Source of the DNA: Bacteroidota bacterium
GTDB taxonomy: Bacteria > Bacteroidota > Bacteroidia > UBA8524
Direction: 5' to 3'
Assembly: GCA_016124735.1 (NCBI GenBank)
Contig: WGMZ01000046.1
Span: forward strand, 1 to 39,497
DNA: 39,497 nt
Shown: in pieces, positions 4,479-39,496 of the stretch
Layout: the number at the start of each line of letters is the position of its first letter
Position numbering within the stretch: the stretch's first letter is position 1
Notes under the pieces: generated by a model
What the model was told of the DNA's origin: nothing
Databases searched by the model: none
Seen by the model: only the letters and a program-made list of their open reading frames with translations
Translations under genes and position numbers: made by a program

Positions 4479-7400
4479 CTATCGCAGGAGATGAAGTACG
4501 TCATGGTTTTCTCCGCGTACCGCCTTTGTACCTTCACGGAAGGTGTAGACGACATGAACCAGGTACACATCCATCTGCACCGGAACACCCCCCTTGGTTC
4601 CATCCCATCCTGAATCCGACTCTGTGCCTTCATAAATAATTTGTCCCCAGCGATTATAGATGTAATAATTCATGCTTAAAACACCATCCATGACGGGCTT
4701 ATAGTAATCGTTTGTGCCATCGTTGTTTGGTGTAAATGCCGTGGGTATCATCACCCGGCAATCGATGTCCTGGAATTCCACATCCACTTCATCATGGGCC
4801 GATCCACATACGTTGGTTACTGTAACAGAATAATGACCCGTATTTTTCGCCGGATACAAAGGACCTGTGCTTCCGTCATGCCATAGGTAGGTGGAATTCC
4901 AAAAGGTTACATCGTAGGTCAAATATTCATTCATGCAGATGATGGTATCCGGGCCCAAATCCGCCACCGGGGTTGGGTACACCAGCGTATATTGGATGCT
5001 TGTGTCAACGCAGCCATTCACATCTACGATGTACGTAACCGTATCTTCCCATAATTGAAGCGGGAGATACTGGTTGTTCCAGATATTTTTTCCATAAAAT
5101 GCTCCTCCGGGAGTATTCACCGTGACATTTGCGGGTGTGGTGCTTTCGCAATAATACGGATCAAGCGGTCCAAAGTCCGGATCTGGCATGGGTTTAACAA
5201 AAATCTCATGGCCCAGAGAATCCCAACACCCTTCATTGGATGTAACTCTCAATCTGATGCGATGGATACCCGTATCATAGAAGCTATGATCCAATACTGA
5301 ATCCTGTCCATACAGTTTCTTTCCTTCAAACCACCTTTGAGAATATATGCCCAAAGAATCGAAACTGGCTGATGTAAACTCGTAGGCGTTGGTATTCAGG
5401 CATTGGGCAGAATCGTTGATGGTAAAGCGAACATCCGGTTTTGGAAACACCCTTACTGCGGAGATTACGGTATCCTGGCAATTGCTGTCATTGGTCACAA
5501 TCAGTTGAACCCCATATTGCCCTGAACTTGCGTACGAAGGACTAAAATATGGGTCAATAGATGATTGACCATTGTCACTGCTCCACTTGTAAGCAACAAT
5601 CGGGTGACCCCCATAAGAAACACTGCTGCTGGCTATGGTAAAATTCTGTGCATTCACACATTGGGTGGAATCATTGATGACCATGCCTGCCACCGGTTTT
5701 GGAAAGACTATTATACCCAGGCTTGTATCGTGAAAGCATCCCTCTGTGCTCAGCACAATATGTTTCAAAAGATAGTCGCCTGATAGAGTATAAAAATGCG
5801 AAACATTTGAATTTAAACTGTCTGAACCTCCGTCACCATAAAACCAGTAGTCCTTGCCACCGGCACCATTTGCAGAGAATTGGTACGACTGCTTATTCAC
5901 ACATTGGCTCGCATCATTGATTGCGAAACTCGCATCCGGTAAGGCAAACACTTCCATGTTATGGATAACTGAATCCACACAGCCGGAAGCCATTGCGTAC
6001 AATTTTACCGGATAGGTTCCCGGGGAAGAATAACTTCGTTCCGGTTTGGCAGATATATCTCCATTCAAAGGGCTAAAGTCCCAGTTCAAGCTTATGGATC
6101 CATAAGCCACCGTACTTGCATCTTCAAAATCAAAGCGGTTCGTATTGAGGCACTGGGTGCTGTCGTTCACCGTAAACGCCGCAAAGGGTTGAGGCAAAAT
6201 AACAATCGAATGGTAGGTGGTATCCACACAGCTATAAACGCTGTAAGTCATCAGCATAATGTCAAGGGAATCATGAGCTCCGAAGCTTTTCACAGGGCTG
6301 TTTTGAGTGGAAGTATCTCCCGGCCCAAATACCCATTTATAATTCATTGGACTATCGCCTGTGCTCGTCGGAGTAAATGTAAATTGATTGCCCGACAAAC
6401 ACTGTACGTCATCATTTGTTTTGAAGTCACTCACCGGAGAATCATACACCCGGATCAATTTTTCAGCAGTGTCACTGCACCCATGATCGCTCACCACTGC
6501 AAGCCGAATTGTTTTATGTCCGGCATAGGGAAAATAGGTCGTGGTGTCTTTTTTACCATCCCGGTAAGAATTGCCCATGAACCAGGAATTCCTGATAATG
6601 CTTCCATACTTCAACTGCGCAAGTGAACTAAATTCAAAATCCTGAGCATTGACGCATTGACTGTCTGCACTTACAGAAAAATCCGAAGCGGGCAAAGGAA
6701 AAACTATCAGGGTATCGGAGGCTGTATCAATACATCCATTTACAGATATTGCCATCAGACGCAGAACCCATGAAGAATCTGCCTGGTAGGCCTTAACCAC
6801 ATGTTGCTTGTTTGAACTGGTTCCATCTCCAAAATCCCAGTTATATGTTAAGGTTCCCGTATTTACAGAAGATGTATTGTACGCCCGGAAGCTATCCGCA
6901 AAGAGACACATATCCGGACGATTCACGGAGAACGATGCATTCGGCACTTCATACACCCGCATCGTACGGGTGCTGCTATCCTTGCAGCCATTCTGTGAAG
7001 CGTTTACCAGTTTAACCGTGTATAAGCCGGTAGCCGAATAATGTACCAGAGGATTTTCAACCGTATCACTACTGCCATTACCGAAGTTCCAAAGCCGGGA
7101 GGCATAACCGTCCGGGTATACCGTACTATCCTGAAACTGAAAAGATTGTATATTGTCGCATTGGGCGCTGTCGTTCACCGTCAGATTTGTATGCGGATTG
7201 TCCGGTACATACATGGTGTGTGTAAATGTATCCTGACAAGCATTGCTGCTGATTGAAATCAGGGAAACAGAGAAGTTACCCGGATTGGTATAGGAATAAG
7301 CAAGTTGTCTGGAGGTGGCTGTGTTTCCATCCCCCAGATTCCAGGAATAACGCAGCGTATCACTTCCGCTGATGGCCGACACGTTGGTGAAATTAAATTG

Positions 7401-10400
7401 ATTTCCCTGAAAGCATTGCACGCTATCATCTACACTGAAGGATGCAGTTGGGGAAGCATACACATGAACAATCTGACTGGCCGTATCCACACATGCACCG
7501 GAAGAGATTGCCACCAGCTTCAAGGCATAATTTCCATACTGAGCATACGAATGACTTGGTGATTGCTGTACAGAAGTACTGCCATCCCCAAAAATCCAGC
7601 TATAGGTCAGCGGTCCTGAGGAAATGGATGAGGTATTGTTCGCAATAAACACATGGCCATCAAAACACTGTGCCGTATCATTCAAAGTGAAGGACGCCGT
7701 CGGTTCCGGATAAACGACGACATTGGTCGAAATACTATCTACACAGCCATTGGGTCCCGTTGTCTTCAATTGTATCAAATAGGTGCCATCACTGATAAAG
7801 TGATGAAACGGACTGTTCGCATTCGAACTGGCCCCATCGCCAAAAGACCACTCATAGGTTATACTTCCGGAGCCTAGCTGTGAATTGTCACTAAATTCAT
7901 AATAATTGGAATCGAGACATTGGTTGGTGTCATTGATTGAGAATGCGGCTATTGGTTCCGCGTACACATACACTTTGTGAGACGCGCTGTCTTCACAGCC
8001 ATCTCCCGAACTCGCAATTAAACGAACATTGTAGTTACCGAAGCCCTGATAGCTTTTTATCGGATTGCTTTGATTGCTGCTGTCTCCGTCGTCGAAATAC
8101 CAGGAATAGCTCATCGAACCCACGGAAATGCTCGAAGTATTTGTAAAATCAAATTCATGCCCATTTAAACATTGCGTGCTGTCGTTGATGGTAAACGACA
8201 CCTGAGGTTGGGCAAAAATGGATATCTGATGTTGCACCGTATCTGCACAGGCATTGGGTGCAGAGACTATCAACTGCAAGCTATACGATCCCGGACTGGC
8301 ATACCTATGAGAACCCACAGAACCGGTGTCTGAGTTTCCATCCCCATAGTTCCAGGAGAACATTGGTGTACCGGAAGCCAATGTGGAGTTATTGGTAATT
8401 TGAATGGCATTTCCATCCTGGCAATGCATGCTGTCATCTACACTAAAATCCGCATTTGGATCCGCGAAAACCCAGACAGGAAGAGTCGCCGTATCCATGC
8501 AGGAATTCGGGCCGGTCGCAATCAATTGAATGGTATAGGCTCCAAAAGAGGAATAACTTTTCACCGGTACATTGCTTGAAGAGGATGTTCCGTCTCCGAA
8601 ATCCCAGTGGTAGCTTAAACTTCCGCTGCCAATGTTACTGGTATTATTCAATACGAATAAATTACCTCCCTGGCAGAGGGAGTCATTGGTAACAAAGAAA
8701 CCAGCCATCGGAACTTCATAAACGTGCGCTTTGAAGTTCAAGGACGTGTCCATACAGCCGTTATTATTGGTTACAATCACATGATAAAATGAACTATCCT
8801 GAACAAAAATAGAAGAACCTGTTTCCCCTATATTGGCTCCATCTTTTTGCCATTGGTAGGACACGGTGCCAAGGGCAATAGATGCCAGCATTACACTATC
8901 GCCATCACAGAGGTTAGCCGATGTGATATTCAGATTGACTTGCGTTGTACTGTTCACCTGAACATTTACTTCCCTGGAGGTATCCCGGCACACCCCCAAA
9001 AATGCAATAACCTTATAGATTCCCGATAAATTCACCGTTGCAGAAATGCTGCTATTCCCTATCGGACTTCCATTCCTGTACCAACTGTAGCTGGTCCCGG
9101 AAGTGTTGGGTACACTCAAAGTCACATTATCATAATCACAAAACGTAGTGTCGCCGCTTAGACTTAAACTAACCGTAGGGGGCGCTATAGTCGAAATTGT
9201 AATGGGGTAGGTCGTGTCTGCACATCCGAATGCATTCTCAACAACCAGACGGTATGCACCCGATGCGGTTACCTCAAGACTGTCTGCACCAGCTCCGGAA
9301 ATGACCGCTCGATCCTTTTGCCAGCTATAGGAATTTATTCCACTGCCTGAGGAATGAAGCACTATGGTATCTCCCAAACAAATGGAAGAATCGCTGGCTG
9401 AAATAGTGGCGCCTGGATGGGAGACGATTGTAATGGATGTTGCACTGCTTGTGTCGGTACACAATCCTCCCTGATGCATAATCAATTGATATGAACCTCC
9501 GCTGCTTACTGTATAGGTTGAGTCGGTAGCTCCCGAAATAGCGGCTCCATTTTTCATCCACTGGTAATCATAGGAACCAAGACTCGCTGCTATATCTACC
9601 TGGTCGCCGGAACAAATACTATCATTGCCGCTCAGTACAAAGGCCGACACCGGCCTGCTAATCAATTGAATGCTCACACTTTGAGATGTATCCGAACATA
9701 AAGTATCGCTGAAAACCACGGCATAACTGCCCGTTGAACTTACGTAGAGGATGGAATCCGTTTTACCTGAAATTGCCGAGCCATTTTTTAGCCATTGCAA
9801 GGTATAACCGGAACTATTGTTTGCTTTTAACCGGATTGAATCGCCGGAACACAAAGTAGTTCCCGAAGAGGTATCGACAGAAGCACCAGGTATCAATCCG
9901 ACAAATACCCGTGTGGAATCCAACACTTCACAGCCTGCAGCTCCAGTCATAGTCAACGAATAGGTCTGCCAGCCGCTTAATCCACCGGATGAGTGTGCCG
10001 GATTCTGTTGCGTGCTGCTAAACGAAGATGGACCCGACCAAAGGTATGAGTTTGCGCCTGAAGCGCTGAGACGGATGCTGTCTCCTTCACAATAGGGACC
10101 GGTATTGCTTATACTGTGAGAGAAGTATACGTAGTAAAACTGGTCCATATCAATGGACGTACAAATAGAAGATGAAGGGGAAGTATACAGGTAGTTAAAT
10201 AAATCAATGGCAGGTGTCCAGGTATTTGCTGTTCCGGGAGTCATGTACAATGCATTCGAAGGACTGTATGCTTCAATTAAAACAGTAACGATGAAGTTAT
10301 CACTGATAGAATACAGGCTGGTATTATTAATGTGCTGGGTCGATAATTTGTTACCCAGCGTATCTGTAACCTGTACAGTTAGTCTCACAGGTATGCTGGT

Positions 10401-10781
10401 ATTCAAAGTCGAAGTTCCGCCGCTTGATTGATAGTAGTAAGAAGTATAGCCGGTAAATACCCATGTGCCACTATCCTGGTTACTGAGAGAGCCACTATAA
10501 TACAGGTCGTTCATTCCGCTGCATGCCGATCCGGGTGCCGCCGTATTGTTGCCATTGATCACGCCCGACATGGTGTCTGGAAATCCCCAGTATGCGCAGG
10601 TATCCGAACGAAACCAATCGGAATTTCTAAAAGTAAATGCTTTGCCTCCGCTTTGTCCCCACGCCCGGCTATCGGCCGGACTCGAACTACTCGAATTGCC
10701 CGATAGATTTGTCCAGGAACTTTGCGAATAAGCCGCGGCCGTGAATAAGCCAAACAGAAGAATCAATCCTATTTTTTTCAT
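4479..10781 (-). CDS. Giant Ig-like/PKD repeat adhesin with T9SS type B (gliding motility-associated) C-terminal domain
   Basis: A 2100-residue protein. Residues 1-19 are a signal peptide (LILLFGLFTAAAYS). About 20-225 is a unique N-terminal region rich in S, Y and W. About 225-690 holds six Ig-like domains of ~78 residues, each with LCxGDSIxL and YxWxKNGxxI strands. About 690-1866 holds 14 PKD domains of ~84 residues, each opening with FxxNDSxQC and containing a WxFGDG-like strand and a closing GCxDT strand. A linker and an Ig-like domain follow, and the last ~90 residues (TAFTPNNDGTNDYY, YNRWGQIIYEG, WDGTKGG, VYLVHVVYTF) are the CHU_C/T9SS type B sorting domain. The ATG overlaps the upstream stop as ATGA, indicating translational coupling to the 860-aa protein. 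By family it is an extracellular adhesin comparable in plan to SprB-like proteins. Each PKD unit carries two Cys at fixed places, so a disulfide per domain is likely. Confidence 0.93.
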   Translation of the reverse strand: MKKIGLILLFGLFTAAAYSQSSWTNLSGNSSSSSPADSRAWGQSGGKAFTFRNSDWFRSDTCAYWGFPDTMSGVINGNNTAAPGSACSGMNDLYYSGSLSNQDSGTWVFTGYTSYYYQSSGGTSTLNTSIPVRLTVQVTDTLGNKLSTQHINNTSLYSISDNFIVTVLIEAYSPSNALYMTPGTANTWTPAIDLFNYLYTSPSSSICTSIDMDQFYYVYFSHSISNTGPYCEGDSIRLSASGANSYLWSGPSSFSSTQQNPAHSSGGLSGWQTYSLTMTGAAGCEVLDSTRVFVGLIPGASVDTSSGTTLCSGDSIRLKANNSSGYTLQWLKNGSAISGKTDSILYVSSTGSYAVVFSDTLCSDTSQSVSIQLISRPVSAFVLSGNDSICSGDQVDIAASLGSYDYQWMKNGAAISGATDSTYTVSSGGSYQLIMHQGGLCTDTSSATSITIVSHPGATISASDSSICLGDTIVLHSSGSGINSYSWQKDRAVISGAGADSLEVTASGAYRLVVENAFGCADTTYPITISTIAPPTVSLSLSGDTTFCDYDNVTLSVPNTSGTSYSWYRNGSPIGNSSISATVNLSGIYKVIAFLGVCRDTSREVNVQVNSTTQVNLNITSANLCDGDSVMLASIALGTVSYQWQKDGANIGETGSSIFVQDSSFYHVIVTNNNGCMDTSLNFKAHVYEVPMAGFFVTNDSLCQGGNLFVLNNTSNIGSGSLSYHWDFGDGTSSSSNVPVKSYSSFGAYTIQLIATGPNSCMDTATLPVWVFADPNADFSVDDSMHCQDGNAIQITNNSTLASGTPMFSWNYGDGNSDTGSVGSHRYASPGSYSLQLIVSAPNACADTVQHQISIFAQPQVSFTINDSTQCLNGHEFDFTNTSSISVGSMSYSWYFDDGDSSNQSNPIKSYQGFGNYNVRLIASSGDGCEDSASHKVYVYAEPIAAFSINDTNQCLDSNYYEFSDNSQLGSGSITYEWSFGDGASSNANSPFHHFISDGTYLIQLKTTGPNGCVDSISTNVVVYPEPTASFTLNDTAQCFDGHVFIANNTSSISSGPLTYSWIFGDGSTSVQQSPSHSYAQYGNYALKLVAISSGACVDTASQIVHVYASPTASFSVDDSVQCFQGNQFNFTNVSAISGSDTLRYSWNLGDGNTATSRQLAYSYTNPGNFSVSLISISSNACQDTFTHTMYVPDNPHTNLTVNDSAQCDNIQSFQFQDSTVYPDGYASRLWNFGNGSSDTVENPLVHYSATGLYTVKLVNASQNGCKDSSTRTMRVYEVPNASFSVNRPDMCLFADSFRAYNTSSVNTGTLTYNWDFGDGTSSNKQHVVKAYQADSSWVLRLMAISVNGCIDTASDTLIVFPLPASDFSVSADSQCVNAQDFEFSSLAQLKYGSIIRNSWFMGNSYRDGKKDTTTYFPYAGHKTIRLAVVSDHGCSDTAEKLIRVYDSPVSDFKTNDDVQCLSGNQFTFTPTSTGDSPMNYKWVFGPGDTSTQNSPVKSFGAHDSLDIMLMTYSVYSCVDTTYHSIVILPQPFAAFTVNDSTQCLNTNRFDFEDASTVAYGSISLNWDFSPLNGDISAKPERSYSSPGTYPVKLYAMASGCVDSVIHNMEVFALPDASFAINDASQCVNKQSYQFSANGAGGKDYWFYGDGGSDSLNSNVSHFYTLSGDYLLKHIVLSTEGCFHDTSLGIIVFPKPVAGMVINDSTQCVNAQNFTIASSSVSYGGHPIVAYKWSSDNGQSSIDPYFSPSYASSGQYGVQLIVTNDSNCQDTVISAVRVFPKPDVRFTINDSAQCLNTNAYEFTSASFDSLGIYSQRWFEGKKLYGQDSVLDHSFYDTGIHRIRLRVTSNEGCWDSLGHEIFVKPMPDPDFGPLDPYYCESTTPANVTVNTPGGAFYGKNIWNNQYLPLQLWEDTVTYIVDVNGCVDTSIQYTLVYPTPVADLGPDTIICMNEYLTYDVTFWNSTYLWHDGSTGPLYPAKNTGHYSVTVTNVCGSAHDEVDVEFQDIDCRVMIPTAFTPNNDGTNDYYKPVMDGVLSMNYYIYNRWGQIIYEGTESDSGWDGTKGGVPVQMDVYLVHVVYTFREGTKAVRGENHDVLHLLR

Positions 10782-13360
10782 GGCTCAATGTTCAGTTTAT
10801 ATGTCTCCCAGGTTCCGGAATGCTTTAGCCTCAGGATATACATACCCGATGACAAGGGATGATTCGCCTGCACTTCCGTGCGCTCACCCAGCTTGCCTAT
10901 CAGAATGTCAATCTTTTCGCCGGTAATAGAATATAGGCTGCAAGATTCAAGTGTTTCCCTGTCAATATTCAAAAAGAATTTACCTTTAGAAGGATTGGGG
11001 TACGGGTTTATATTGATTGGATTAGTTGCAAAAACATAACTCGGGAAATGTGCTTCCCTTTTCACTTCAAAACTCAGGAAATCAATTCCTGCCTCAGACG
11101 TGCCTGAATTGAAAAAATTTGACTGATTTCGAATCGAGATAAAAATACTGGCGCTATCCACCTGTTGGTTTGGGAGGTAGTTGATATCTACTTCAAATTC
11201 ACCCCAGTTCGCCACACTTTCTGTGGTTTCCCAGTTGCCCCAGCCCACTTGCTGTCCATCTTTAAACATGGCAATTTGAACGCTCAAGGTGTCTCCGTCC
11301 AACTGCTTATCGAAAGTATAATAACCAAGCAGGCGCTTGTATGGAAACGAAACAGGGAAGGAGGGTTTGTAAGGATACTGGTTATCATTTACAGTGGCTA
11401 TTCCGATTCTTCCAAATTGTGGATGATCCCGGAGTAACAAAGAATAACGTCCCGAAATTTTTGATTCACTTCGACGAACCTGAAACAGCTGCCCATCCGT
11501 ATTAAATGAGTACCACGAATCCGGGTGGAAAAGCGTATCCGCCATTGTTTTCGAAAGGCCCTGATTGGGTACTTGCTCTGCGCTTCCCTCAAACCACATG
11601 GTATCCAGAACAAATACGCTGCTGGAGTCGAAGCTGCCCGAATAATAATTGGAAGAGACAAAGATGAGTTTGAGCGTGTCTACCTGATTCGCATTCAGGT
11701 AATTCAGATTGACAGAAAAATCTGCATTCTGACTCAATTGACCGGCAAAACCCTGATGTCCTTCAGCCACTGAAGCGCCGTTGGCATCCTTTAATTCATA
11801 GATGACCAATACCGAGTCTCCCGGACTTGTCGTAAAACGCCCCCGGAAGCCAATCTTGTCGGGTCTTCCGCTATATGAAATCCCGCCAAAAAGCCCATTA
11901 TCTCCCGGAATGGCATAGTACAATGCCCCGGGCTCTTGTTTGTCTTTTGCTTGTAGCTGAACTTCAGTATTTCCATCATGAAGATGGAGGACTTCCACTC
12001 TGCCGGCATATCCCCAGTCTGAAATAAGTTCCAGATTCTTTGTTTGCCAATACTCAAAATCAAAATTGGGCACTTCATTGGGACCAACAAAAAAATCCAA
12101 AGGTTCGCTAAAAAAAACTCCTGCGTCGCCGCTCAATTTCACTTTGGCCGTATAATATCCTTCGCGCAAGACTAAGTCGGCTGTCAATACAATCTGGCTG
12201 TTATCCTTATGTATGCCCCATGTAAACGTCGAATCACCGTAATCGGAATGGAGATCCAAACTCACCTGAGTAGGAACTCCAAATACAGAAATGATGGCAC
12301 GGATCTGAATCTGGTCATTGCTGAGAAGCGTGGGGGTTTCCAGCTGTGCCTCCGGCCTTTGCAGGGATGTATCTATAAAACAGAGTGTTTTCCCGGTTCG
12401 CCCCCCAAACACACCATAATATCGGTTTACGAAGTGAATGGATGTAATCGCCCGATCATCGTTTATTGATGGGGAGAGATGAAGTGGCTTCCACACTTTA
12501 GCCCCACTATCTAATTGAAATATATTTCCGTAATCTCCTGCAACATAACCCCTTCCATCCTGAAATACGAATAATGCATTCAGCCGGCAACCCGCCGAAA
12601 GACTGATGGTTTTCAGACTATCTGCAGATGGATGAATTCGGCCCACAAATCGCAGCGAATCATTGCCTCCACGACCTCCTGCCAATAGCATTTCATCATC
12701 TGGCCATTTTTTAATTGCATTTATTTCAATGCCACTCAAATCCTGATCGGATGGAAGTACAGTCCATTGACTCCCGTTTTGTGAACTCTTAATCGTAAGT
12801 CCTCTGCTCCCTACTGCAAAATAATCACCCATTCCAGACAGGGCCATGCTTTTGATTATCCCCCGATTCCCACTGTAGATCATTTTCCAGGTCACTCCAC
12901 CGTCGGAACTTTGAATGATTAATCCGCTATCGCTGTTTAAGATGCCACCTCCGATGATCAGATTGTTCCCGTCGGCCATTAGGCAATTCAGCGCATAAGA
13001 TTTAAAGGATGAAATGGATTTATCTTGCCAATTCAGTCCCGCATCATCCGAAAAAAAGAGCGAACCATATCGACCGCAAGCCCATAAATGCTGCTCGTCA
13101 ATCACAAGAATTGCATTCAGGAAATTTCCCGGAAGGTCAGAGATAAGGTTCCAATGGTATGCTGAATCGCCAGATTGAAATATGCCGGTGATGGAGTCAT
13201 TGCTTTCCCAGCCTCCGACAGCAAGAACGTTCTTTGGGTTGAGCATGCATATGCCTGAGGCATGGCGGAATTTTGGCAGCTCAGATTTTCTCCATACCTG
13301 TGCCTGCAAACCACACCATGTGCCGAGAATAAAACTTAGTATTAGGATTAGTTTTCTCAT
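10778..13360 (-). CDS. Secreted propeller-like protein with T9SS type A sorting domain
   Basis: An 860-residue protein. Residues 1-20 are a signal peptide (LILILSFILGTWCGLQA). Residues ~25-360 contain repeated strands such as LFFSDDAGLNWQD and IIQSSDGGVTWKMI, the Asp-box/YCF48-like signature of a beta-propeller. About 365-475 is an Ig-like region. About 475-780 appears to hold two beta-sandwich (carbohydrate-binding-like) domains, each opening with an NFDFEYW-type strand or its relative and rich in FDSSSVFVLDTMWFEG-like strands. The last ~75 residues start with INPYPNPSKGKFFLNI and end in YILRLKHSGTWETYKLNI, a clear T9SS type A sorting domain. The gene heads a two-gene operon with the 2100-aa adhesin; the four-base ATGA overlap couples them. 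A hairpin lies in the leader. Role inferred only as a surface or secreted binding protein; no catalytic residues were recognised. Confidence 0.88.
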   Translation of the reverse strand: MRKLILILSFILGTWCGLQAQVWRKSELPKFRHASGICMLNPKNVLAVGGWESNDSITGIFQSGDSAYHWNLISDLPGNFLNAILVIDEQHLWACGRYGSLFFSDDAGLNWQDKSISSFKSYALNCLMADGNNLIIGGGILNSDSGLIIQSSDGGVTWKMIYSGNRGIIKSMALSGMGDYFAVGSRGLTIKSSQNGSQWTVLPSDQDLSGIEINAIKKWPDDEMLLAGGRGGNDSLRFVGRIHPSADSLKTISLSAGCRLNALFVFQDGRGYVAGDYGNIFQLDSGAKVWKPLHLSPSINDDRAITSIHFVNRYYGVFGGRTGKTLCFIDTSLQRPEAQLETPTLLSNDQIQIRAIISVFGVPTQVSLDLHSDYGDSTFTWGIHKDNSQIVLTADLVLREGYYTAKVKLSGDAGVFFSEPLDFFVGPNEVPNFDFEYWQTKNLELISDWGYAGRVEVLHLHDGNTEVQLQAKDKQEPGALYYAIPGDNGLFGGISYSGRPDKIGFRGRFTTSPGDSVLVIYELKDANGASVAEGHQGFAGQLSQNADFSVNLNYLNANQVDTLKLIFVSSNYYSGSFDSSSVFVLDTMWFEGSAEQVPNQGLSKTMADTLFHPDSWYSFNTDGQLFQVRRSESKISGRYSLLLRDHPQFGRIGIATVNDNQYPYKPSFPVSFPYKRLLGYYTFDKQLDGDTLSVQIAMFKDGQQVGWGNWETTESVANWGEFEVDINYLPNQQVDSASIFISIRNQSNFFNSGTSEAGIDFLSFEVKREAHFPSYVFATNPININPYPNPSKGKFFLNIDRETLESCSLYSITGEKIDILIGKLGERTEVQANHPLSSGMYILRLKHSGTWETYKLNIEP

Positions 13361-13532: not shown

Positions 13533-16500
13533 TTACTTCAATTTTCGCTTCACTTCGAACTCTTCGAATCCTTCGATGATATCGCCAACCTGGATGTCGT
13601 TGTAGTTCTTTAATCCAAGTCCACACTCGTATCCGGCAGAAACCTCCTTCACATCATCTTTGAATCGTTTCAGTGAATCCAATTCTCCGGTGTGAATCAC
13701 AACGCCATCGCGCACCAGGCGCACCCGCGTATTCCGCGTAATTTTTCCATCGAGCACATAACAACCGGCAATGGTTCCGACTTTGGTGATTTTAAACACA
13801 TCGCGCACTTCGATATTGCACACTTCTTTTTCTTCAATATCCGGCTCGAGCAATCCTTCCATCGCGTCTTTAATCTCTTCGATTGCCTTGTAGATGACGC
13901 TGTAGTATTTGATTTCGATACCTTCATTTTCGGCCAGTTTTTTAGCCTGAGAAGAGGGACGTACCTGGAATCCGACAATGATTGCATCGGAAGCAGAGGC
14001 AAGCATCACATCTGTCTCAGAAATTTGTCCCACCGCTTTTTGAATCACGTTAATTTGAATTTCTTCTGTCGACAATTTCAACAGCGAATCGGCCAGGGCT
14101 TCTACCGAACCATCCACATCACCTTTCACGATGATATTAAGTTCTTTAAAGTTTCCAATTGCCAAACGGCGACCGATTTCATCGAGGGTGATATGTTTCT
14201 GAGTCCGCAAGCCTTGTTCTCTTTGCAGCTGCTGACGTTTGTTCGCAATATCTCTTGCTTCCTGATCGCTTGCTGTTGCCACAAAACGGTCACCGGCTTG
14301 TGGCGCACCGCTGAAACCAAGCAGGGTTACCGGGGTGGAAGGACCTGCTTCATCAATTTTGCGTCCTCGTTCATTGAACATGGCCCGCACTTTACCGGCA
14401 TGTGTTCCGGCGATAATTGGGTCGCCAATGCGCAGCGTACCTCCCTGAACCATCACGGTAGTAACAATGCCTCGGCCTTTATCCAACTGGGCTTCCACGA
14501 TAGAGCCACTGGCCCGCTTATCCGGATTGGCTTTCAAATCGAGCATTTCTGCTTCCAGCAATACTTTCTCCAGCAATTCGTCAATATTGATCCCTTTCTT
14601 GGCCGATATCTCCTGGCACTGGAATTTGCCTCCCCAATCTTCGACCAGGATATCCATCTGAGCAAGTTGTTCTTTTACCCGGTCAGGATTGGCGCCGTCT
14701 TTATCAATTTTATTGATCGCGAAGACCATTGGCACAGCCGCAGCTTGTGCGTGAGCGATCGCCTCTTTTGTTTGCGGCATCACATCGTCGTCTGCTGCAA
14801 TCACAATGATGGCAACGTCCGTCATCTTGGCACCACGTGCACGCATGGCAGTAAAGGCCTCGTGACCCGGGGTATCCAGGAAGGTGATTTTCTTACCGCT
14901 GTCGAGGGTTACTTCATAAGCACCCATGTGCTGGGTGATACCGCCCGCCTCACCGGCAATAACGTTTGTTTTCCGCACATAATCGAGCAAGGAAGTTTTA
15001 CCGTGGTCAACGTGACCCATCACGGTAACGATCGGAGCACGTGGCTGCAAATCTTCCGGATCGTCCACCTCTTCTTCGATGGCTTCCTGAACGTCTGCAC
15101 CTACAAACTCAACCTCATAACCAAATTCTTCGGCGATGATGGAAATCATTTCTGCATCCAGGCGCTGGTTGATGGACACCATCATACCCAGGCTGAAACA
15201 AGCAGTGATGACCTCGTTTACTCCAACATCCATCATTTTTGCCAATTCATTGGCGGAGATGAACTCGGTAACCTTCAGGATTTTTTGTTCCATTTCCTCG
15301 AGGCGCATTTGCTCCTCACGATTCTTGGCATGCTGATCCCGTTTTTCCCGGCGGGTCTTCTGACGATTACCTCCGGACTTACCGCTTGGTTGAATGCGGG
15401 CAAGGGTTTGTTTCAGTTTATCCTGAATTTGCTTTTCAGTAATTTCCTGCCGGTCGTTTCCGGTGCGGTTGTCGCGGTTTCCGCCACCTGGACGGTTGTT
15501 ATTTCCTCCACCCGGACGGTTGTTATTTCCACCAGGGCGATTATTATTTCCTCGGTTATCTCGGTTCTGCGTATTCGGTCCGCTACCCGGAATTGTTTTA
15601 CGTTTCCGTTTCTTCTTGCCTTCGTGGGAACCGTCTGATGATGCCACCGGTTTCTTTTTCTGTTCCGTTGGCAATTCTATTTTACCCAAAACTTTCAAAC
15701 CCTGAAGTTTTTCATAATTCGGTTTTACGACCGATTTATCCTCTCCTTCCGTCTTGCTGTCTTTTGGCTTTTCAATTTTAGCTTTCGGCTCAAGCTTCGG
15801 CTTCTCTTCGGGTTTGGCTTTTTCCTCTTTCTTCGCTGCAGGTTTTTCTACCTCCTTCCGGGCCACTGGTTTTTCTTCCACCTTTGGCTTTTCTTCCTTC
15901 TCCTCTTTTTTGGCAACAGGCTTCTCTGCCGGTTTCTCTACTTTCTCCGGTTTCGCCTCTTCCTTCTTCTCCGCAGGTTTTTCTTCTTTTGCTTTAACGG
16001 GCTCTTCTTCCTTCTTCTTGGTTCCTTTTTTATCAGAATCCCTGAGCTCGATTTTGCCAACTACTTTTACCCCCACTTTTCCTTCTCCCTCTTCCTTCTT
16101 GGCAGCGGGTTTTTCTTCAATGGCAGGCTTTTCAACCTTTTCTTCCTTCTTCTCTTTCTCTACTACAGGTTTTTCTTCCAGCTTCTTCACATTCTCCACG
16201 GATTTCTCTTCCGTTGGGGTAGTCACCGGATTCACTGTATTATTCTTAATCAGAATTAACTCATCATCGAATTCATTGGTTTCGTTAGATGCAGGCTTTT
16301 TGGGCACATCAGAGATCTCCGTGGTGGAATTATCCTCCCGGCCTTTGTTGATGTCTAGTTGTTTGGCCTCATCCCGTGCCGCCTTATCTGATCTAAAATC
16401 ACGAAGCAAAACTTCATATTGCTCCTGTGTGATTTTAGCCGTCGGTTTGGCATCCACTTCAAATCCCTTGTTTTTCAAGTGATCTGCTAAGGTGCCCACT

Positions 16501-19393: not shown

Positions 19394-19465
19394 AAAGACA
19401 GCTTGAGTTGAGTTTTTAGTTTAGTGGTTTATTGTTAAACTGCAATTCATGGTCGTGATGTGGGT

Positions 19466-19930
19466 TTGCCCAATTTTTATCCAATGAAATAGCCTCATAG
19501 CTTCTGGCTGAAGCCTGAAGCAAAAAGAATTCAATTAATGTGCTGAGCCCCGTGCTTTGAGCATTTGATCTGTCTTTTTTCCTAATAGCCGAAAAATTTA
19601 ACAAGACCCCGGAGGGGTCGCCCACCCTTTGCATTAAGAATGGCTATGCTATACAACCCTGAAGGGGTTGCCCAATTTTTATCCAATAACATTGCTTCAT
19701 AGCTTCTGGCTGAAGCCTGAAGCAAAAAGAATTCAATTAATGTGCTGAGCCCCGTGCTTTGAGCATTTGATCTGTCTTTTTTCCTAATAGCCGTAAAATT
19801 TAACAAGACCCCGGAGGGGTCGCCCACCCTTTGCATTAAGAATGGCTGTGCTAAACAACCCTGAAGGGGTTGCCCAATTTTTATCCAATAACATAGCCTC
19901 ACAGCTGCAGGCTGAAGCCTGCAGCAAGAA
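19466..19930. repeat. 202-bp tandem repeat array with three palindromes per unit
   Basis: Units start with TTGCCCAATTTTTATCCAAT at 19466, 19668 and 19870, exactly 202 bases apart; the third copy is cut off after ~60 bases. Each full unit has three dyads: a GCTTC...GAAGC stem (19500-19521, 19702-19723; changed to GCTGC...GCAGC at 19904-19925), GACCCC-GGA-GGGGTC (19605-19619, 19807-19821) and CAACCCT-GAA-GGGGTTG (19654-19670, 19856-19872). The two full copies are nearly identical. The array fills the space between two convergent genes. Short - strand frames through it are not credible genes. It looks like an interspersed non-coding palindromic element; no transposase is present. Confidence 0.85.
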
Positions 19931-33661: not shown

Positions 33662-36600
33662 CTATTTCATCAACATCACTTTTCCGCGTTGTTGGAAATG
33701 TTGCGCGCCATAGTAGTTTCCTTCTACCTGCCATACGTAGACCGTGCTTTCGCACATCACTCCCCGGAAGGTTCCATCCCAGGCTTCGTCAATGTCATGG
33801 GTTTCAAACAGGAGCTCTCCCCAACGATTATAGACTTTAAACGTATAATGGTCTCGTTCTACCCCTTCGAAAACAGGTCGGAAGTTGTCATTGACTCCGT
33901 CACCATTCGGCGTGAAGGCATTCGGAACAAGTAATACCCCACCTGCATTGATGCGGATATAATTTTCCTTGTAAGCCGTGTCGGTACAGCCGTACGTGTT
34001 CATGGCGATAAGCATCACCGTGTATTCTCCTTCTTCATTCAAGGTGATGATCGGTGAATCGTCGTTACTGGTGAAATCATCTCCATTTGGACCGTCAATC
34101 TGCCAGAGATATGCATTGGCCAAAATCGATGTATTCACAAACTGGATGGAGGTATTGGGTAGCCAGGCCACAGTTGGTGTGGTATAGAACTTCGCGTAGG
34201 GCTTTTGAATGACCAGAATGATATCCGTTTTGGTGCTATCATCTACTCCTCCCGGACCACTTGCTAAAAGGGTCACTGTATAAGAACCGGGAGTGGTATA
34301 CGTATGTGTCGGGTTTTCGTCGGTGGACTGCCCTCCATCTCCGAAATACCAATGGTAAGAATCGGCATATTGACTCTCATTGGTGAACGTAACCGTTAAG
34401 TCCATACAACCGGTATCGGGGTCCTCGTAGAAGGAAGCAATCGGGTAATAATATTCGATGGTCACACTGCGGGTCGCTGTGTCGCTGCAATGTCCGTTGT
34501 CGATAATCTGCGTGATCAGATAGGTTCCACTATCCGCATAAATATGCTGTGGATCGCTTAATGTTGAAGTATTGCTTCCGCTGGATGGTTCTCCAAAATT
34601 CCAATGATAGTTCAGAGGATCATTCGCTACAGAAAGGTCTGTGAAATCTACAGTGGAATTCGGCAAACGCTGAGAGCTCGGCGTGGCAATAAAATTGGCC
34701 TTGGGTATTTCCCAGATGATAACCGGATTAGGAAGGGAATACGTTGCCGAACATCCATAAGCATCATACACAATGATGCTTGGCTGGTACACGCCTACCT
34801 GTCCGTATGGATGACTGGGGTCTTTCAATGCCGAACCCGTTCCATCGCCAAAGTCCCAATCAAAATAAATCGCATTGGTCGATTGATTCGTGAAATGAGC
34901 CAGCATGAAACCACATGCTTCCTGCGCATCTACAACAAAAGCCGCAGTAAGTATCGGATGAACCGTAACGGTTCGATAAGCGGTATCATAACAGCCATAG
35001 GCTGAGGAGGCCACCAATCGAACAGTAAATACTGTGTCCTGACTCAAGCTCGTCGGGAAGACATGACTTGGGTTTGGATCGGTCGACGAGGTTCCATCGC
35101 CGAAATCCCAATTATAAATCGTAGAACCTTGCGACAAATTATTGATATCGTAAGCCGCCTGCGTACATGAGCTTGTTTTGCCGATCGTAAAATTCGCGGT
35201 AATATTTGGCTGCAAACTAACCGTAACCGATGTGGTATCTGCACAACCAAGCGCGTTGCTCACAATGAGCGTAACGGTGTAATCTTTTGCAAAATAATCA
35301 GGATTGATATACGTGTGCGAAGGCGACTGACCTGTATTCACAAAACCATCACCGAAATCCCAGTAATAGTTGCTCGCGTTGGTCGAGTTATTTACAAAAT
35401 CTACCGTAAGCGGATTGCATCCGGACGCATTTATTGTCGATGCTTTTGCAAGCATAATAGGCGTTACCGTTATGCTCTGACTCAATGAATCCACGCAACC
35501 CCGATTCGACGTCGCAATAAGTTTCGCCGTGAAACTTGTATCACTCGATACGGCAGTAGGATAAATATGAGTCGGCCCATCCTGATAAGAACCTGTTCCG
35601 TCGCCAAAGAACCATTGATAGCCAACCGCACCCGCTGTGTAATTTCTAAATATATACGAACTGGTATCGCAAATACCTGTTTTATTCACTGCAAAATTAG
35701 GCCGGGGAAGCGGATGCACGCGGACAGTCACCGTATCATGATCCAGGCACCCATGGATTGAAACAGCCTCCTGAATAATTTGAAAATCCCGATAGATACC
35801 CAACTGATTTACGAATAAATGCGATAAGGTATCTCCTGTACTGGTTGTATTGTCTCCAAAATTCCAGTTATGCGATGCGGCAATAATGGAAGTATTTCCA
35901 AACTGCACCAACAGCGGACTGCATCCTGAATCCGGAGAAAAGGTAATCTGTGCATCCGGTAAAGGGAAAATAGTCGTCGGCTTGGTCAAAGTATCTTTGC
36001 ACCCATACACAGAAGTGGCAATCAAAGTCACGGAATACCCTGTATCGGTAAAAGGTATTTCACTAAAAGTGTGTTGCGGATTGACGGTGCTTGTCGAAGC
36101 AGATCCATCTCCAAAGGTCCAGGAATACGAATAACCCAGGGTAGAATTATTGCTGTATTGTATGGTTCCTCCTCCACAGAGGGAGTCGAAGTTCTGACTG
36201 AAATTGGCCACCGGTGTGGGCCGTACAATTATGGTTGTGCTCACCGTATCGCTCCAGCATCCATACGGACTGGAAGACCAATACTGCACGGTATAACTGG
36301 TATCAATGTTCGGCTGACTGGCAAAAACATGCGAAGGGTTTGCTTGTGAGCTCGTATCTCCATCTCCAAAATCCCAGTAATGCGTTCCGGTATTGAGTGT
36401 ATTTCCTGTGAACTGCACACTCAATGGTCCGCAACCCGTTTGAGTATTCGGCGTGAACGCCACCAGCGGGTTGGGATGCACGCGCACGGTTGAATAATTT
36501 GTATCGGCGCAGCCGTGTTCGCTATAGGCAATCAGTCGAATTGTGTAAACGGAATCCTGCGTAGTTGAGGCATAGAATACCGGTGTCGGATTCACTGCAG

Positions 36601-39496
36601 TGCTGGTCTGTCCGTTTCCAAAATCCCAACGGAAGGTCATGTCATTGATGCTACCGGTATCGTAAGGAGTGGATTGATTGGTGAAGCTAACATTCAAAGG
36701 AGAACATCCGTCTGTGTCACTTTGCGTAAATAAAGAGAGCGGTTTCGGGTAGGTCCTGACTGTTTTATACGCTGTGTCCAAACAACCATGCTCACTGGCC
36801 CCAATCAATCTTACGGTATAAATACTGTCCTGTGTCAATGAACGGGAATAGGTGGTAGATGGATTCGTTGCCGTTGTATTGATTCCATTGCCCAATGCCC
36901 ATTCAAAGGTCATCACCGAAATATCGCCTGTATCATTCGGCGTAGATTGATTGCTGAACTGAACACTCAGGTCGCCGCATCCATTGTTTGGTTGTGCCAC
37001 AAAATCCGTGGTTGGAAGCGGGTATACCCGAATCGACTCGATGCTCGAATCGAGGCAACCGTGCACCGATTCAACCCTAAGCTTCACGTCATAAAGTGTA
37101 TCATTCAGCGTTGCATTGATGAAGTTACTCGAAGGAGAATGTGCCGTATCCGTTGTCCCGTTTCCAAAATCCCAGAAGGACGAAACACTCAACAAGGAGT
37201 TTTGTCCGAAGCTGACGCTCAAAGGCGTACATCCAGCGGAAGGATTGCTGGTGATTACAGCCGTTGGTAATGGGAATATATGCACCGTGTCGTAAGCTGT
37301 ATCGAGGCATCCAAAATAATTTGTTGCTATCAGACGAACCCTGTAACTGGTATCCACCGTTTGGCTCGCACTAAAATTATGTTGCGGGTTGGCATTGCTT
37401 GCCGTGCTTCCATCTCCAAAGCTCCAGGCATAAGAGGTGGCACCGGTCGATCCGTTTGCGAAAATCACCTGAGAAGTACCACAGAGCGAATCTCCATCTT
37501 TACTAAAAGCGGCTACGGGATTCGGACGTACGGTTACTGTCTTGGTGCTCGTATCGCTTAAACATCCATAGGGTGACTCCGACCACATGGATACGGTGTA
37601 AACAGTATCGATATCTAATACATTAGTGAAATCTTCGCCGGGATTGGATTGACTGCTGGTATCACCGTTGCCAAAATCCCAATGGAATGTCTGCACGTTA
37701 GTGCCGCTGCTGCTAAATTGAACGGACAAGGGCCCGCAACCTGAAGCCGGCGATCTGGTAAAGCTGGAAGCCGGATCCGGATAGACGCGAACGGTCGAAT
37801 ACATGGTGTCCCGGCACCCATGTTCACTGAAGGCAATCAATCGAATGGTATAAACAGTGTCTACTCCATTTGCCGGATAGAATGTAATGGTATCGTTCGG
37901 ATCGTAACCTACGTAACCATTACCGAAATTCCACTGGAAATGCATGTCAGCGATAGACCCGGTATCATATGGGATCGATGTATTGTAGAAGGAAACGGTC
38001 AGTGGCCCGCAACCAGCTGTGTCACTTTGTGTAAAGCTGGCGCGCGGTTTTGGGAATACACGCAGGTTCTTTTCAATGGTATCCCGACAGCCATGTTCAC
38101 TGAATGCAATCAATTGTACAGTATAAACACTGTCCTGAACCAGCGATTTCGAATACGTAGATGATGGATTGATTTGGGTAGATGAACTACCGTTCCCCAA
38201 ATCCCACTCAAAGCTCATGATGGAGATAGAACCCGTATCATTGGGCGTAGATTGATTCGAGAAGCTGGCGGTTAAATCTCCACAACCACTCGATGGAGAT
38301 ATTACAAAATCAGCACTTGGGAAAGGATATACCCGTACTTCATCCGTGGCAGTATCATTACACCCTCCAAGGTTTGTCACAATCAATCTTACCGTATAAA
38401 TAGAATCGATTACGCCCGAATTGGTGAAGGCAAACGATGGGCTTGAACCAGTATCCGCATAGCCATTGCTGTAATACCAATGATGGGATGCGGCAAAAAT
38501 AGATTGACTGGTAAAATTCACTGTATGCGGACTGCACCCGGTATCGTAATCCATGGTAAATGCTGCGGTTGGGATTGGCGAAACCACCACATAGGCATCT
38601 GCAGTATCCCGACATCCATTTCCGCTGGAAGCTACCATTAATACATGGTACGCTGTGTCAGCCGCTGGGTTGAGGGTAAACAAGGCCTGTGGGGAAACAG
38701 CAGATGAGGTGTCTCCATTTCCAAAATCCCAGTAATACGAAGTCGCTCCCAATGAGTTATTAATCATCTGGGAGGAGGTAGTCGCACAGACAGAATCCGG
38801 AGATGGATAGAAAGAGGCAGAAGGTCCGCCTAAAACTGCAACATTCGTTTTGGCTGTGTCGCTGACACAACCGTAGGGAGATTCTCCAACCAGCGTCACG
38901 ATATAGGTCGTATCGTCGAATGGGATAGCTCTAAAATCAAAAGTTGGATTTTGAGTTGTGCTGCTATCCGAAGAGGTGAAGCGCCAGTGATAGGTAGCCA
39001 CATTCACACCGCTGGCCGTAAAATTCACCGTTACCGGATCGCATCCGGTAGAATCATCTTTGGTCAATGAAACGGAAGGTTTTGGATGGATGCGTACCTG
39101 AGATTGCATGGTGTCTGCACAACCATGTTCGCTGTAAGCAATGAGCCGAATCGTATAAACCGTATCGTTGATGGCGGCAGCCGTATAAGTAACAGACGGG
39201 CTTTGTAAGGTGGAAGTTTGGCCGTTACCAAAATCCCAACTGAACGTCATGTCCGCAATCGTACTCGTGTCATACGGCACCGAGCTATTGGTAAAGCTTA
39301 CCGTTAAAGGTCCGCAACCGGCCGTATCACTTTGTGAAAAAGACGCGGTCGGTTTGGGATAAACCCGCACAGTATTCGTCGCAGTATCGGGACAACCGTG
39401 TTCGCTGTAAGCAATGAGCTGAATCGTATAAACGGAATCCTGAACCAGGCTCGCTCCGTAGTTGGTAGCAGGATCCTGGCTGGTGGATGTGATTCC
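33662..39496 (-). CDS. Giant PKD-repeat adhesin with T9SS type B C-terminal domain (N-terminus outside window)
   Basis: The frame stays open to the right edge, so at least 1944 C-terminal residues are present and the N-terminus is missing. From the edge: the end of one PKD domain, then 21 complete PKD domains with strands such as FxWDFGNG, YTIRLIAYSEHGC and RVYPKP. The first 14 are arranged in a five-domain unit (lengths 91, 85, 84, 84, 91 residues) repeated; the last seven are more divergent. The final ~90 residues (LLVPNAFTPNGDGVNDNFRP, YNRWGELLFET, WDGTFRG, VYVWQVEG, QRGKVMLMK) are a CHU_C/T9SS type B domain. Most PKD domains have a Cys near the start (GCGPL) and a second in SEHGC or SPYGC. 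Expected location is the cell surface, as an adhesin. Its 3' end shares a 33-base identity with 30736-30768. Confidence 0.95.
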   Translation of the reverse strand, partial: GITSTSQDPATNYGASLVQDSVYTIQLIAYSEHGCPDTATNTVRVYPKPTASFSQSDTAGCGPLTVSFTNSSVPYDTSTIADMTFSWDFGNGQTSTLQSPSVTYTAAAINDTVYTIRLIAYSEHGCADTMQSQVRIHPKPSVSLTKDDSTGCDPVTVNFTASGVNVATYHWRFTSSDSSTTQNPTFDFRAIPFDDTTYIVTLVGESPYGCVSDTAKTNVAVLGGPSASFYPSPDSVCATTSSQMINNSLGATSYYWDFGNGDTSSAVSPQALFTLNPAADTAYHVLMVASSGNGCRDTADAYVVVSPIPTAAFTMDYDTGCSPHTVNFTSQSIFAASHHWYYSNGYADTGSSPSFAFTNSGVIDSIYTVRLIVTNLGGCNDTATDEVRVYPFPSADFVISPSSGCGDLTASFSNQSTPNDTGSISIMSFEWDLGNGSSSTQINPSSTYSKSLVQDSVYTVQLIAFSEHGCRDTIEKNLRVFPKPRASFTQSDTAGCGPLTVSFYNTSIPYDTGSIADMHFQWNFGNGYVGYDPNDTITFYPANGVDTVYTIRLIAFSEHGCRDTMYSTVRVYPDPASSFTRSPASGCGPLSVQFSSSGTNVQTFHWDFGNGDTSSQSNPGEDFTNVLDIDTVYTVSMWSESPYGCLSDTSTKTVTVRPNPVAAFSKDGDSLCGTSQVIFANGSTGATSYAWSFGDGSTASNANPQHNFSASQTVDTSYRVRLIATNYFGCLDTAYDTVHIFPLPTAVITSNPSAGCTPLSVSFGQNSLLSVSSFWDFGNGTTDTAHSPSSNFINATLNDTLYDVKLRVESVHGCLDSSIESIRVYPLPTTDFVAQPNNGCGDLSVQFSNQSTPNDTGDISVMTFEWALGNGINTTATNPSTTYSRSLTQDSIYTVRLIGASEHGCLDTAYKTVRTYPKPLSLFTQSDTDGCSPLNVSFTNQSTPYDTGSINDMTFRWDFGNGQTSTAVNPTPVFYASTTQDSVYTIRLIAYSEHGCADTNYSTVRVHPNPLVAFTPNTQTGCGPLSVQFTGNTLNTGTHYWDFGDGDTSSQANPSHVFASQPNIDTSYTVQYWSSSPYGCWSDTVSTTIIVRPTPVANFSQNFDSLCGGGTIQYSNNSTLGYSYSWTFGDGSASTSTVNPQHTFSEIPFTDTGYSVTLIATSVYGCKDTLTKPTTIFPLPDAQITFSPDSGCSPLLVQFGNTSIIAASHNWNFGDNTTSTGDTLSHLFVNQLGIYRDFQIIQEAVSIHGCLDHDTVTVRVHPLPRPNFAVNKTGICDTSSYIFRNYTAGAVGYQWFFGDGTGSYQDGPTHIYPTAVSSDTSFTAKLIATSNRGCVDSLSQSITVTPIMLAKASTINASGCNPLTVDFVNNSTNASNYYWDFGDGFVNTGQSPSHTYINPDYFAKDYTVTLIVSNALGCADTTSVTVSLQPNITANFTIGKTSSCTQAAYDINNLSQGSTIYNWDFGDGTSSTDPNPSHVFPTSLSQDTVFTVRLVASSAYGCYDTAYRTVTVHPILTAAFVVDAQEACGFMLAHFTNQSTNAIYFDWDFGDGTGSALKDPSHPYGQVGVYQPSIIVYDAYGCSATYSLPNPVIIWEIPKANFIATPSSQRLPNSTVDFTDLSVANDPLNYHWNFGEPSSGSNTSTLSDPQHIYADSGTYLITQIIDNGHCSDTATRSVTIEYYYPIASFYEDPDTGCMDLTVTFTNESQYADSYHWYFGDGGQSTDENPTHTYTTPGSYTVTLLASGPGGVDDSTKTDIILVIQKPYAKFYTTPTVAWLPNTSIQFVNTSILANAYLWQIDGPNGDDFTSNDDSPIITLNEEGEYTVMLIAMNTYGCTDTAYKENYIRINAGGVLLVPNAFTPNGDGVNDNFRPVFEGVERDHYTFKVYNRWGELLFETHDIDEAWDGTFRGVMCESTVYVWQVEGNYYGAQHFQQRGKVMLMK
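33666..33698. repeat. 33-bp direct repeat copy (with 30736-30768)
   Basis: The last codons of the giant PKD gene (FQQRGKVMLMK) are repeated base for base at 30736-30768 in the same orientation. The two copies bracket a ~2.9-kb AT-rich segment. No integrase or inverted ends are visible. Confidence 0.85.
35705..39349 (-). repeat. Higher-order repeat: five-PKD-domain unit of 435 residues
   Basis: Domains fall into classes A (GCGPLTVSF, PYDTGSIADM), B (SPYGC plus SDT), C (LCGxx, DTAY), D (GCSPL, xxHW/xxFW, RVYPLP) and E (GCGDL, TPNDTGSISIM). Order from the right edge is E(partial)-ABCDE-ABCDE-ABCD. Unit 1 is 39349-38045 and unit 2 is 38044-36740, each exactly 1305 bases. Unit 3 (36739-35705) lacks E and its C domain is one residue longer. 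Confidence 0.88.

Follow-up and report, generated by a model that had tools for sequence, protein, structure and literature searches.

A bacterial PKD-domain array with a five-domain super-repeat of 435 residues and its probable growth by block duplication

The window, i.e., the whole stretch of 39,497 nucleotides analysed here, is the entire contig C35 of a 3.1-Mb genome (G000) assembled in 53 contigs. A PKD-array gene is located at its end on the reverse strand (33662..39496), with an ORF open to the contig end; 1944 codons are present and the 5' part is lost. The product matches PKD_4 above the cut-off (Pfam; PKD family PF18911, 430.7 bits) and terminates with a region (33665..33952, reverse strand) that includes a CHU_C type IX secretion signal domain (PF13585; residues 1856-1926; 49.2 bits against a cut-off of 27). 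With CHU_C above its cut-off, the protein is probably a type B cargo of the type IX secretion system (T9SS). The N-terminal half of the gene can be found on another contig of the same genome (C47, 48473-51769), where it displays a 65% match to the N-terminal half of the ortholog in G003, a genome from another genus of the same family. This part starts with MTRMNQWKKTILRALGVLVCLLAVTFADAQC, which is signal peptide-like by eye, carries domains that are PKD-like upon segmentation and breaks off within a PKD domain where the contig ends. Roughly the C-terminal half of the gene is therefore contained in the window and, because the gene is not complete and is divided between two contigs, the units counted here give the minimum number. 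No other contig of the genome carries the missing middle when searched with orthologous domains, and C47 and C35 show no suffix-prefix overlap, in contrast to G003, where there is a 56-bp overlap. By comparison with the orthologs, the full protein would have at least about 38 PKD (Ig-like) domains.

HMM segmentation of the array, all on the reverse strand, gives PKD domains of five classes, namely A (91 residues), B (85), C (84), D (84) and E (91), which sum to 435 residues and occur twice in exact register. Unit 1 (38054..39358; exactly 1305 bases) consists of A1 (39086-39358), B1 (38831-39085), C1 (38579-38830), D1 (38327-38578) and E1 (38054-38326). Unit 2 (36749..38053; again exactly 1305 bases) consists of A2 (37781-38053), B2 (37526-37780), C2 (37274-37525), D2 (37022-37273) and E2 (36749-37021), and is 51% identical to unit 1 in amino acids and 53% in nucleotides. 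Unit 3 lacks E (35714..36748) and comprises A3 (36476-36748), B3 (36221-36475), C3 (35966-36220) and D3 (35714-35965). The preliminary description had recognized this ABCD unit, but the C domain has 85 residues and not 84, one residue being inserted (A91, B85, C85, D84). It is followed by K1-K7 (33953..35713), seven PKD domains outside the block, among which K5-K7 are conserved in position in relatives. At the contig edge lies a partial domain (39359..39496), earlier taken for another E. This assignment has to be given up: the domain is 59% identical to E1 and E2 of the same protein, versus 76% and 74% to domain X2 of the orthologs in G001, a genome from the window's own genus, and in G003, respectively, and corresponds to the last half of X2, the X domain that closes another block, located upstream. 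Each complete A-E domain (35714-39358) contains exactly two cysteines, one at position 15 and the other at 73, 74 or 80, which perhaps form a disulphide.

The five-domain period dominates when the array is compared with itself. The best protein self-match lies at an offset of 435 residues (score 2033), followed by 870 (743) and 91 (626). In DNA, the 1305-base offset is the best one, with 55% identity over 1970 bases. The mean identity between PKD domains is 51.5% at lag 5, 46.1% at lag 10 and 38.5% at lag 1, all other lags giving 35-40%; none of 20000 permutations of the domain order reached the lag-5 identity, even when the best lag from 2 to 7 was taken. Within the window, same-class identity is 65-67% for A, 41-55% for B, 39-51% for C, 37-39% for D and 64% for E. 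Classes A and E, of 91 residues each, are themselves related (46-54% identity). That same-class domains resemble each other more than neighbours do, as first noticed, holds for the lag averages and in the domain tree described below, but not for class D taken pairwise: its copies (37-39%) are no closer to one another than to other domains, and their kinship is visible only in the exact register and in a tree including relatives. The array is a multi-domain super-repeat, in which domains at the same position are more alike than neighbours and follow each other with a constant period and order; the ABCDE super-repeat of 435 residues, with its two exact units and the dominance of offset 435, is real.

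Orthologs of the array gene were found in G001 and G003; none was found at the thresholds used in G002, an incomplete congener, and G004 has just a 34% match. The layout in G001 and G003 comprises a signal peptide, ten PKD domains, an F-G-H-X-Y block present twice, ABCDE units, ABCD, K1-K7 and CHU_C. The F-G-H-X-Y block has a period of 440 residues in G003, and A1 occupies the place of Y in its second copy. The assemblies break inside the array gene in G000 (in the upstream block) and in G003, and that of G001 has an NN gap. ABCDE-type units number three in G000, four in G001 (A1-E1, A2-E2, A3-E3 and A4-D4, i.e., one 435-residue unit more than in G000) and at least three in G003; every complete ABCDE unit in these three genomes of the window's family is exactly 435 residues long.

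In an IQ-TREE tree of 85 domains, B (99/92), E (100/92), C (91/46) and D (82/65) each form one group on one side of a branch, and class A mixes only with the homologous upstream Y and H domains. It is thus domains of the same class that group, and no pairing of adjacent domains, the outcome that would have contradicted the preliminary description, was found. Moreover, C1, C2, C3, D1, D2, D3 and B1 each cluster by position across genera. In a tree of whole units, first units group with first units (97/100), u2-type units together (99/97) and last units with last units (100/99), the third unit of the window clustering with the last one of G001 and G003. This grouping by position across genera in both trees argues that the three-unit array is older than the split of the window's genus and its sister genus.

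Regarding the present state of the units, those of the window are 53-55% identical as DNA, and their 4-fold sites are saturated (17-38% identity between window units; 11-52% between orthologs of different species). The longest exact repeat is 21 bp in the available window part of the gene, 51 bp in G001 and 56 bp in G003. It had been suggested that the gene could change length by recombination and so vary the reach of a presumed adhesin. With units this old and diverged, and with no exact repeat longer than 21 bp, a recombinational change of length within them today appears unlikely.

In the relatives, tracts of 250-320 residues have been homogenised recently. In G001, D2-E2-A3 and D3-E3-A4 match at 81/133 4-fold sites, versus 26/77 for A-B-C of the same units (Fisher p=2e-4), and in the upstream block G-H-X match at 82/97 versus 9/23 for F (p=3e-5). 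G003 displays a weaker trend in the same direction (49/77 vs 8/20, p=0.07). In the 85-domain tree, F1 and F2 diverge by position and G and H cluster within each genome, a case of concerted evolution of part of the block. Contigs of G003 end in A3 and share a 56-bp end, like an assembly graph at a repeat, a hint of additional copies or of mixed unit numbers. That the additional unit in G001 is a simple recent tandem copy was considered and dropped: B and C are diverged (51-61% nt) and D, E and A 86-91% identical. With B and C as diverged as between species and D, E and A alike, the copy would either be old and partly homogenised or have been built stepwise; it could be older than the species and then have been lost in G000. 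Unit number has changed in the lineage, as seen from the additional 435-residue unit of G001 and its homogenised tracts.

The K5-K7-CHU_C module is matched in 109/395 sampled genomes of the class (E<=1e-45), although some of these matches may be paralogs. The genomes fetched from this search all align to the C-terminal module (20/20), and in most of them the N-terminal half aligns well too; the middle of the array varies among relatives. One ABCD unit is found in G368 and two in G094, a difference of five domains; G264 and G329 have a five-domain block of 441 residues, twice; a run of eight domains, each of 90-93 residues, is present in G172 and G298, together with a five-domain repeat further N-terminal; and a two-domain lag is seen in G199, G209, G306, G275, G339, G102 and G276. 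No strong block repeat was found in G366, G383, G285, G286, G092, G389 and others. In such distant families, the best BLAST hit assigns B, C, F, K5, K6 and K7 domains to their classes, but leaves D and the classes of 91 residues ambiguous. The unit tree places G094_u1, G094_u2 and G368 together in a clade (99/96) and the units of G264 and G329 in a separate one (97/97), with moderate support only for the split between f1 and f11 units (58/74). These separate clades indicate that duplication of five-domain blocks took place independently in at least three lineages (f1, G094 and G264/G329), each time at the same position of the protein. Together with the lag test and the domain tree, relatives with one, two, three or four units, in steps of about 435 residues, bear out the earlier proposal that the gene grew by whole five-domain blocks. 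In the G298 ortholog (L039/L187), domains 6-10 and 11-15 of the N-terminal part repeat at an offset of 417 with 69% mean identity, away from the place of growth in the window's family.

An AlphaFold model of D1-E1-A2 is nearly all beta (mean pLDDT 90.6, pTM 0.68), and its seven best PDB folds are fragments of the PKD array of GhpA, with TM about 0.6. GhpA is also the best PDB sequence match of the array (8e-55). Cell-surface adhesins of the type IX system, e.g., SprB, share the large size and the type IX sorting predicted for the array protein, which may also act in adhesion. Its most likely role would be that of a surface stalk or fibre whose length is set by the number of blocks. We consider, with a probability of roughly 0.87, that the gene encodes a very long, type IX-sorted surface protein of a Bacteroidia species whose middle grew by duplication of five-domain blocks, with later changes in unit number and homogenisation of tracts in relatives. 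Tandem duplication of the A-B-C-D-E block (435 residues) would have enlarged the middle of the protein, two rounds giving three copies before the genus separated from its sister genus, and the copies would then have diverged with their register fixed. Unit number has changed within the lineage, the congener G001 having a fourth unit, and gene conversion or unequal crossing-over may have homogenised the 250-320-residue tracts between blocks in relatives. The secreted protein would project from the cell as a stalk or rod.

The same period could in principle have arisen from duplications of single domains, followed by gene conversion or selection. The relatedness of A and E and the third rank of offset 91 among the self-matches are in line with this, as are families like f62, in which eight consecutive 90-93-residue domains occupy the same place, and a single-domain duplication linking A and E may well have preceded the block duplications. 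As an account of the period itself, such a history is very improbable, since five classes recur in one order with identical lengths, lags 5 and 10 stand out while lag 1 does not, and the trees recover both classes and positions. It is also unlikely, though less so, that the protein is a stalk of the periscope type, whose unit number varies among strains at present through recombination between units. Periscope proteins (SasG, Rib, Sgo_0707) are likewise bacterial surface rods of tandem domains with differing repeat numbers. The difference of exactly one unit between two species of the genus would fit, and breaks of contigs in the upstream block of G000 and in A3 of G003, with its shared 56-bp end, are what repeats or mixed unit numbers would give. 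However, repeats of periscope proteins are described as highly to nearly identical, with a number varying among strains (PMC8201768), whereas identity between the window units is about 51% in protein and 53-55% in DNA, with exact repeats of at most 21 bp and saturated 4-fold sites, and their variation in number is shown between species only. Because its repeats are far from identical, the window protein is not a periscope protein as described.

A further possibility is that several chains assemble into a filament, as in the grappling hook GhpA of Aureispira, with the five-domain unit as the structural repeat of the filament. The Aureispira hooks are reported as a heptameric structure of a type IX-secreted protein (PMC11205867). 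GhpA (PDB 9flp and others) is a giant PKD array with a CHU_C-like C-terminal region, i.e., similar to the window protein in domain composition, and ranks best in the PDB by both sequence and fold. An assembly period of a fibre would also explain the independent in-register duplications of five-domain blocks at the same place in f1, G094 and G264/G329. Nevertheless, the match is at the domain level, and any T9SS PKD array may match. Among the listed stretches, K5-K7 are not aligned to the C-terminal part of GhpA, CHU_C alone being aligned, and other families have two-domain and single-domain units at the same place. Such a filament is improbable for the window protein, and it is equally doubtful that the five-domain unit sets the period, mechanical or of assembly, of a surface fibre made of several chains. 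If it were, fibre length would be altered in whole assembly periods.

Vertebrate muscle proteins are the best-known case of Ig-like arrays that grow by blocks. Growth of the window gene by five-domain blocks recalls the A-band of titin (Ig/FnIII) and nebulin, with blocks in fixed order and duplication of the whole super-repeat, as well as Ig-like domains in the case of titin. It differs from both in being bacterial and intronless, with one domain family (PKD) per block, a five-domain unit and few copies, and in encoding a protein that is predicted to be secreted. We know of no ruler partner for the array protein. In titin, super-repeats display position-specific likeness between units (PMC10665226), and in domain repeats in general, as well as in nebulin with its seven-domain blocks, growth proceeds by multi-domain blocks, often in the middle of the array (PMC1553488). 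The window gene is a bacterial example of this titin/nebulin-style super-repeat, a style of growth that was already known. What it offers is a single bacterial gene with conserved ends, for which relatives living today carry one, two, three or four blocks. Old, diverged blocks can be found beside recently homogenised ones, and in other lineages growth at this place was by one or two domains at a time. The determinants of unit size in domain arrays can thus be tested directly, as can the low similarity of neighbours (38.5%) as a reason for the copying of blocks and not of single domains.

Other repeats can be found in the window and in the genomes compared. A second large PKD/CHU_C protein of 2100 residues is encoded at 4482-10781 on the reverse strand, with a best offset of 84, i.e., a single-domain period; its gene overlaps by four bases that of a protein of 860 residues (10778-13360) that carries a YCF48-like domain and a Por secretion tail. 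In G003, similar genes, for products of 865 and 2266 residues, share a contig with the C-terminal half of the super-repeat gene (L034, L129). A 202-base unit is repeated 2.3 times with a 94% match at 19462-19927, adjoining a glycosyltransferase gene, and short repeats of 21-24 bases lie within the gene for translation initiation factor IF-2 (15478-15551). The window genome has 150 PKD_4 matches genome-wide, and its contig C6 (L010 4166-15304) encodes a PKD array of 3713 residues whose period of 84 is purely that of single domains. PKD arrays of other Bacteroidota (L062 9968-14275; L037, L038, L042, L065; L050, L055) display block periods of four domains (333/346 residues) or two domains (162-166 residues).
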